Assembly (NCBI GenBank): GCA_947649495.1
Contig: CANSRU010000011.1
Coordinates: forward strand, 1-64,000
From: an uncultured Porphyromonadaceae bacterium
GTDB taxonomy: Bacteria; Bacteroidota; Bacteroidia; Bacteroidales; Muribaculaceae
DNA length: 64,000 nt
Direction of reading: 5' to 3'
Part shown: piece after piece, positions 3,745-58,369 of the stretch
Position numbering within the stretch: the first letter of the stretch is position 1
Layout: every line of letters starts with the position of its first letter
Made by a program: the position numbers and the translations under genes
Notes under the pieces: generated by a model
Seen by the model: only the letters and a program-made list of their open reading frames with translations
Databases searched by the model: none
What the model was told of the DNA's origin: nothing

Positions 3745-3782
3745 TTGTCTCGTATTGTCCGAATTAGGTCGGATGCCATAAG

Positions 3783-4181
3783 TGGAGCTGGAGGGACTCG
3801 AACCCTCGTCCAAACGCGGAACTAATGTGCTTTCTACATGCTTAGCTTTTACTTGGTTTTCGTGTTGCGGCAGGCAAAAAGCGACCAACCGCAGCCTTAT
3901 CCTCTAAAATTTCGGATGCTTCGCGAGGCTTTCAGCATCCTATTCCCGATTTACCTGCACCGCCTTGTCGATTAGTCTCGGAAAAAGGACAATCGGGCGA
4001 TGTCTTGTCGCTGCAACTGTTGCGGCGATTAAGCGTAATCTACTATACTTCGATTAGGCAGCAAGAGCGTAGTTGTTTTCGCCATTTAAAAAAGTCGATG
4101 TCGGAGATTATAGAGCACCTTCCATCATGGCTCTGCATGCTTACACACCACTTCTACACGCTGTCAAAACCAGTCAACCCC
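3783..4181 (-). ncRNA. ssrA: tmRNA (SsrA)
   Basis: 5' GGGGTTGACTGGTTTTGACAGC; tag ORF GGC GAA AAC AAC TAC GCT CTT GCT GCC TAA (GENNYALAA*); 3' T-arm GGGTTCGAGTCCCTCCAGCTCCA; acceptor GGGGUUG/CAGCUCC. Confidence 0.96.
4054..4083 (-). other. tmRNA tag-peptide reading frame GENNYALAA*
   Basis: Direct translation; ends in ALAA. Confidence 0.93.
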
Positions 4182-57282: not shown

Positions 57283-58041
57283 CTACTCTTTAGGAACGAG
57301 TTCAAAGAAACCGCTTATCTCCTGTTGATCAAGTGCCTGACGTACATTAAAGCGCTTGACCTGTTCCTCATATCCCCGCTTCTGTACCTTCACCTCAATA
57401 GTAACATCTTTGGAATTATCATAGGTAAGACCGAGAATATTGAATCCACGTGTTTCCTCGTAGGGCGTGGTAGTAAGATAAGTCTCATTTGTATTCTTAA
57501 CTTCTGCAGGAACACTTGATATCACGCGCCAAAATATTCTGGCTCCACGCGGGTCAGAATCAAAATACCATCTTATTATTGCGTCTTCCATCTTCGTTGT
57601 CCCGGGCGCTTCGCGAGTGACCACTTCTCTTTTTTCAGACATTGCCTGCGGTTTCTTTTCAGCCGGCTTGAACATGTGGAACACAGCATCAGGATACACA
57701 AAAGGATATACTGAAGCATCCGGAACTATGCTCTCAACGCCATTGGCATAACCATCCTTAATGAACATAAAATGAATACGATTCATTTCCTGAGTGTTTT
57801 GCAATCTCTTACCAGGAGTCTTGAACCCGGTATTGTCAGTTTTGTAGGTAAGAGGAATGGACACCTTTGCCGGAGTGGACTCACACAACACCTGACCGTT
57901 CATCACCACTTTTGCTCCACGGGGCTCACTGTCAAGAGTTATTATTTTTGTCTGAGGCGCAGACACTTTCTTTGCCGCGCAACCCGCCAGTAACACAATA
58001 GCCATAAATACGGCTACAATCGACACTAAATTTGTTTTCAT
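57283..58041 (-). CDS. PEGA-domain lipoprotein, unknown function
   Basis: LLAGCAAKKVSAP lipobox; ITLDSEPRGAKVVMNGQVLCESTPAKVSIPLTY. Confidence 0.75.
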   Translation of the reverse strand: MKTNLVSIVAVFMAIVLLAGCAAKKVSAPQTKIITLDSEPRGAKVVMNGQVLCESTPAKVSIPLTYKTDNTGFKTPGKRLQNTQEMNRIHFMFIKDGYANGVESIVPDASVYPFVYPDAVFHMFKPAEKKPQAMSEKREVVTREAPGTTKMEDAIIRWYFDSDPRGARIFWRVISSVPAEVKNTNETYLTTTPYEETRGFNILGLTYDNSKDVTIEVKVQKRGYEEQVKRFNVRQALDQQEISGFFELVPKE

Positions 58042-58113
58042 TACATAAATGATATTACACCGACCAACACAGCCCCGACTTGGCCAAAAACATTACGATA
58101 TCTATAAATGAAG

Positions 58114-58260
58114 AGCGTGGGACTGTAGCCATACCATCGTTAGAAGGTCCTGAGAAAACCATGGAAAATGAGTATGGGAATAGCAGCCCACGCTATACGC
58201 GTGAGAACCACTATGCCTATCTTGTTTCCGTTGTTTGAAAATTTCTCAGGTTTTCTAACG
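58114..58260. ncRNA. Candidate pseudoknotted RNA / interleaved inverted-repeat element
   Basis: AGCGTGGG 58114-58121 with CCCACGCT 58187-58194 (+CTG/CAG, CCATAC/GTATGG); CGTTAGAA 58138-58145 with TTCTAACG 58253-58260 and CCTGAGAAA 58149-58157 with TTTCTCAGG 58242-58250. Confidence 0.5.
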
Positions 58261-58369
58261 CAAGATTAGCATAACGCTCCTCTAAAATTCAATATGTAGG
58301 TGACGGCTTCTCCAAGTCGTCGTGGCAAAAATACAAAAAAACGTCGAATATTCCGTTATTGAACTTTTT

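Follow-up and report, generated by a model that had tools for sequence, protein, structure and literature searches.

A putative two-state, double-pseudoknot leader RNA preceding accessory envelope genes across the Bacteroidota

Introduction

In trp-type attenuators and pseudoknotted riboswitches, the 5′ leader is structured and transcribed from a promoter of its own, and it combines covarying, mutually exclusive helices with an output element placed beside the start codon. Within the Bacteroidota, the FopS and GibS sRNAs of Bacteroides make up a multicopy RNA family with sigma-ABfr promoters, FopS being about 65-70 nt long, composed of a single-stranded 5′ part and a terminator, and acting in trans (PMC11697453). 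The rAID interbacterial-defence arrays of Bacteroidales contain short, low-GC accessory genes, and "conserved intergenic sequence motifs" have been reported for them (PMC12247911). Finally, the motifs Bacteroidales-1, Bacteroides-1, Bacteroid-trp and Flavo-1 are structured RNAs of this phylum that were found computationally (Weinberg 2010; PMC2864571).

Here we describe an element that shares traits with each of these systems. It lies in a 64,000-nt stretch of contig CANSRU010000011.1 from an uncultured Porphyromonadaceae bacterium (the whole stretch is called the window below), upstream of a gene for a PEGA-domain lipoprotein. Judging from sequence evidence, we consider it probable that the element is part of a leader of about 278 nt at the 5′ end of the lipoprotein mRNA, and that this leader is one of a phylum-wide set of cis-acting, two-state RNA switches.

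Results

A preliminary description of this locus had reported long interleaved inverted repeats, and their arms are present where it placed them: AGCGTGGG at 58114 faces CCCACGCT at 58187, CGTTAGAA at 58138 faces TTCTAACG at 58253, CCTGAGAAA at 58149 faces TTTCTCAGG at 58242, and a CACGC-GCGTG hairpin occupies 58189-58203. Its view that such an arrangement is unlikely by chance holds in so far as the pattern is rare, an interleaved perfect 8+8 repeat pair in 147 nt arising in 7 of 5000 dinucleotide shuffles, but the rarity is not decisive alone, with pairs of this kind in 11 of 6386 overlapping windows along the 64 kb. Given a handful of such places in the same DNA, the repeat pattern by itself is suggestive only. 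Compared with shuffled versions of itself, the 278-nt leader forms a more stable fold (z = -2.93), and it is the homologs that confirm the structured element as real.

A BLAST search with the intergenic region returned dispersed copies in most genomes of the genus (18 of 41 related genomes, with a maximum of seven copies per genome), all of which read as RNA on the strand that corresponds to the minus strand of the window. With a covariance model (R1), the element was found in 26 of the 34 genomes of the genus, in 99 of 118 genomes and 24 of 26 genera of the window's family, and in 66 of 198 Bacteroidales genomes. A second model (R2), built from 71 diverged copies, extended this to 141 of 295 Bacteroidales genomes (87 of 171 genera) and, phylum-wide, to 57 of 397 genomes, some of them from other orders of the same class and a few from beyond that class. 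The window copy (58110-58280, minus strand) matches R1 over its full length with 136.4 bits and R2 with 135.3 bits. Carrier genomes often hold 4-9 copies or more, and these copy numbers are lower bounds, since the wide scans scored no more than a few candidates in each genome. Carriers recognized in a core-pattern scan include Bacteroides rodentium, B. gallinarum, B. faecis, B. stercorirosoris, Parabacteroides faecis, Phocaeicola massiliensis, P. coprophilus and Xylanibacter species; the family is found across gut and environmental Bacteroidota.

That the element could not be assigned to a known family in the preliminary description agrees with our searches of Rfam 15, in which neither the window copy nor other copies had a credible match. 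At the gathering thresholds the sole match in the window is a tmRNA gene elsewhere (3780-4181, minus strand); at E <= 10 the 551 bases around the window copy gave two chance matches only; seven close copies had no match, and neither had any of 14 diverged copies at E <= 1. We found no account of the element in the literature, as far as open-access papers cover it, and the phylum goes unmentioned in RNA discovery screens that covered 26 and 50 genomes. The structured RNA is apparently undescribed, with the proviso that the thousands of candidates in PMC8040213 were not compared one by one.

Two variants of the element were seen. In one subfamily (loci L091-L093, L098-L101 and L105) the loop of hairpin E carries a long insert (CTTGTCG...CCCCGACAAGGGG) that is itself a conserved hairpin. 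A Bacteroides rodentium contig (L184) has two copies spaced 2.7 kb apart (positions about 3600 and 6300), one intact and one missing both ends, as if the latter had come from partial duplication or conversion.

All features described from here on lie on the minus strand of the window. Its scaffold consists of helix B (B1+B2; 5′ strand 58242-58260, 3′ strand 58138-58157), which is the "stem B" already described, and of helix D (58225-58229 with 58163-58167). Nested pairs covary very strongly: in an alignment of 71 sequences, which was fitted to the nested model and leans towards it, 24 of the 28 scaffold pairs predicted by RNAalifold carry compensatory changes, and at several B pairs all four Watson-Crick types occur and no sequence breaks the pair (one pair, for example, is UA 32, AU 13, CG 13 and GC 12 times). 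A closing helix P1 (GAAGCGU/ACGCUUC), attractive by eye, was discarded, its within-sequence advantage being weak (-6.12 against -5.55).

Around the scaffold lie segments that have more than one partner. Segment 1 (C, 58261-58276) is the 5′ strand of pseudoknot stem C. Segment 2 (C′, 58209-58224) is complementary to C, a pairing that belongs to what we term state I, and to H′, which it would pair with in state II. Segment 3a (A, 58184-58194) can pair with A′ in state I or with E in state II, hairpin E being CACGC-GUAUA-GCGUG (58189-58203), the 3′ strand of which is the start of A; segment 3b (H′/K, 58172-58186) can likewise pair with K′ (segment 4a, 58128-58134) or with C′. Segment 4b (A′, 58114-58125), finally, has A as its partner in state I and A″ in state II. 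The latter, GGGGCUG at 58070-58076, is complementary to CAGUCCC of A′ and lies in the loop of hairpin F (GGCC...GGUC, 58062-58085), which was noticed by eye in other copies too and ends, in the window copy, 20 nt before the ATG. The family's A-A′ plus K-K′ pairing is what the preliminary description called the 17-bp "stem A", and the proposed competition of the third hairpin (E) with this stem is borne out. The stems of that description are real, but pseudoknot stem C/C′ and helix D had escaped it, as had the A″ complement beside the start codon.

The pseudoknots were scored explicitly in a 26-sequence MAFFT alignment, where 89.3% of cells pair, as opposed to 39-44% after a shift of the partners by 1-3 columns, and where 127 cells show double changes against 49 after shuffling. 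Because helix A-A′ varies in the close set mainly on one side (GU/GC), duplex energies within the same RNA were compared with those between different RNAs in a wider set of 65 nonredundant copies (<82% identity; 5000 permutations), on which the case for A-A′ depends. Since the regions were set after part of the same sequences had been viewed and the copies share ancestry, the resulting scores are to be read with some reserve: B (z = -26), D (-20), C-C′ (-10), C′-H′ (-14), A-A′ (-7), K-K′ (-5) and A′-A″ (-11), each with 0 of 5000 permutations. In the same test C-H′, A-A″, C-A″, C′-A″ and C′-A′ had no within-sequence advantage; these five of the six negative-control region pairs were flat, and the sixth, H′-A″, was borderline (z = -2.7; 19 of 5000). 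The E-A pairing is nearly invariant, so it says little here. Compensatory changes, which had been proposed as the evidence to look for, are present in stems B and D, with the pseudoknot stems supported as well.

Permutation support for C-C′ as well as C′-H′, and for A-A′ as well as A′-A″, means that mutually incompatible pairings are both supported and that the alternatives reach the expression platform; this yields a strand-exchange anatomy in which 1:2 plus 3:4 is set against 2:3 plus 4:5. The earlier proposal of either a pseudoknot or two alternative hairpins is thereby answered in favor of both sets, as alternatives. At paired positions of the minus strand, G·U combinations outnumber A·C ones by 157 to 37, an excess expected of an RNA and not of a DNA hairpin, which upholds the reading of the element as a minus-strand RNA.

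Classical attenuators follow the same 1:2/3:4 versus 2:3/4:5 logic, which could conceivably be driven here by a leader peptide: an ORF starting at an ATG in C would be translated, and the ribosome covering segment 1 would favor the 2:3 pairing. The window copy has a candidate ORF there (ATG CTA ATC TTG CGT TAG, encoding MLILR), and many Bacteroidales copies read ATG CTT ATC TTG followed by a stop. Against this, the ATG occurs in only 29 of 65 nonredundant copies (TTTTG in 9 more), in several distant copies a start codon is absent from that place, and the ATG is also demanded by C-C′ pairing. We regard a leader peptide as very improbable for the element and unlikely as a general mechanism.

Upstream of the element, TATTTTTG (58326-58333) matches the Bacteroidota -7 box TAnnTTTG, from which transcription would start near 58319. 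The same box lies about 43 nt 5′ of the element's GAAGCG motif in 46 of 61 nonredundant copies, compared to 7 of 305 control windows. A classical sigma-70 scan found nothing, as is expected in this phylum. On the other side of the element, an ATG opens an ORF of at least 60 aa in 264 of 296 copies, at a median distance of 51 nt (quartiles 45-58). In the window this is the PEGA-domain lipoprotein gene (57283-58041; 252 aa), homologs of which follow other copies as well: PEGA-family genes stand downstream of the element at two loci in the same genome, in genomes G008 and G011 and probably also in G001.

What follows the element is otherwise diverse. As many as 194 of the 264 downstream products (about 73%) look exported, against 262 of 836 (31%) for other ORFs at the same loci, signal peptides and lipoboxes having been called heuristically and some loci being near-duplicates of each other; in the window's own genome an exported-protein gene follows each of five inspected copies. 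The 224 complete downstream products fall into 131 unrelated clusters, a spread that is unusual for a ligand riboswitch, with Pfam or NCBIfam matches to PEGA, an HtrA-like protease, LpoB, a Lnu nucleotidyltransferase, GNAT and zinc ribbons. The largest cluster (20 members, among them those of L017, L030, L115, L135, L137, L145 and L241) comprises exported proteins of about 190-280 aa with the motif FKGIPIEGSM / FLGIPVDGSK, and its representative has no Pfam or NCBIfam match. At three distant copies (L163, L165 and L168) the arrangement differs from that in Bacteroidales: the next long ORF lies about 229 nt away and has a carboxypeptidase-like/TonB-plug N-terminus, like SusC/RagA-type proteins.

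This spacing and this bias also bear on whether the element is a free-standing sRNA. Such an RNA would start at the promoter and stop at A-A′ and the pyrimidine-rich stretch CCACGCUUUUU, giving a trans-acting molecule of about 200 nt whose proximity to a gene is incidental, or whose gene is reached by read-through. It would account for the element having its own promoter and for the T run that directly follows A′ in many copies, and dispersed multicopy sRNA families such as FopS do exist in Bacteroides (PMC11697453). It would not account for the tightly fixed start-codon distance, the pronounced excess of exported products, A′-A″ complementarity beyond the would-be terminator, or the many copies without a T run (CACGCTTCGTG); in the window no terminator was called at A′. 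We consider a free sRNA rather unlikely. A cis-regulatory leader, one of the options raised previously, is the best supported among them, given the element's own promoter, the tight ATG spacing and the covarying A′-A″ pairing near the start codon.

Another option is that the structure works as DNA, the element being a MITE or a folded single-strand recombination site, like integron attC, that carries a promoter along. Plain REP and MITE repeats are recognized by terminal inverted repeats and target duplication; attC acts as folded DNA and lies on both sides of each cassette. Several observations would suit such a view. Pairs of copies are 90-97% identical over promoter and element, with visible boundaries of the shared segments and with unrelated flanks on both sides, which indicates that promoter and element can move or recombine without the gene that they precede; downstream ORFs have a lower GC content (0.39) than the upstream flank (0.465), as for acquired genes; their content (Lnu, GNAT, zinc ribbon, DJ-1) is cassette-like; and in some large, fragmented genomes (G040, G204 and G296; e.g. 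L308-L312) many copies are no more than 200-400 nt away from a contig end, hinting at repeated sequence adjoining them. The nearest relatives of the adjoining ABC gene are 66-72% identical, too distant for an insertion footprint to be read from an orthologous site.

Set against these points are the G·U over A·C asymmetry and the mutually exclusive covarying pairings, both of which point to RNA, as well as the tight ATG spacing. Terminal repeats, target duplications and transposition machinery are not established, and a recombinase-like ORF was found in only 2 of 110 loci of at least 6 kb, by a single phmmer query. The attC-like cassette was rejected on the same asymmetry and on the inspected loci having one element per gene or operon, not one on either side. 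Many dispersed copies, which had been put forward as the mark of a REP/MITE-like repeat, are indeed present, but unlike a plain repeat of this kind the element keeps its structure by compensatory change and its place before genes. We give a DNA-level element little credence.

Discussion

Taken together, the family, its helices and alternative pairings, the promoter match, the spacing, the downstream-gene bias and the portability of the unit suggest control of accessory envelope genes by a cis-acting leader as the best reading. In our model, a sigma-ABfr-type promoter would start the RNA, and helices B and D would form its scaffold. Segment 3 (A+H′/K) could then pair either downstream with segment 4 (K′+A′) or upstream with segment 2 (C′+E). 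In state I, the 1:2 and 3:4 pairings (C-C′, A-A′ and K-K′) would build a double pseudoknot. In state II, 2:3 and 4:5 (C′-H′, E-A and A′-A″) would leave the RNA unknotted except that A′ would be joined to the loop of hairpin F, just 5′ of the start codon. The two states may interconvert in the cell, with a signal (conceivably a ligand, a protein, an RNA, translation or the rate of folding) biasing the strand exchange and thereby setting translation, or possibly transcript continuation, of the downstream gene. The promoter and leader have been copied as a unit before many unrelated genes, mostly those for exported proteins and lipoproteins.

The broader proposal, that this is a new, phylum-wide class of two-state double-pseudoknot RNA and that a travelling promoter and leader puts horizontally acquired, mostly exported accessory genes under one signal, has in our judgment about an even chance of being right. 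If so, a structured RNA that is very widespread in gut Bacteroidota has been without a curated model, and it would rank among the rare complex RNA switches that recur before many unrelated genes. Its signal would expose how envelope and accessory genes of abundant gut bacteria are controlled in common, and Bacteroides tools could employ the module as a regulator. The map of exclusive pairings makes direct compensatory-mutation tests possible at once.

With respect to known systems, the Weinberg 2010 motifs that have Rfam models do not match the element, whereas Bacteroides-2 and GUCCY-hairpin have no Rfam model and were unscored (PMC2864571). The rAID arrays differ in that the element usually occurs once per operon, in no dense array and rarely near a recombinase. 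R1 at E <= 1 had no match in ten SUKH_6 loci, nor in five SUKH regions of 14-18 kb, loci and regions alike not being established as bona fide rAID arrays; on its absence beside the SUKH genes tested, we rejected it as the rAID intergenic motif. Membership in FopS is ruled out by length and structure, the element being a pseudoknotted leader of about 170 nt. Compared to riboswitches and attenuators, whose anatomy it otherwise shares, the element is without an Rfam match, is interleaved with a long scaffold helix, and precedes genes of no fewer than 131 unrelated clusters.
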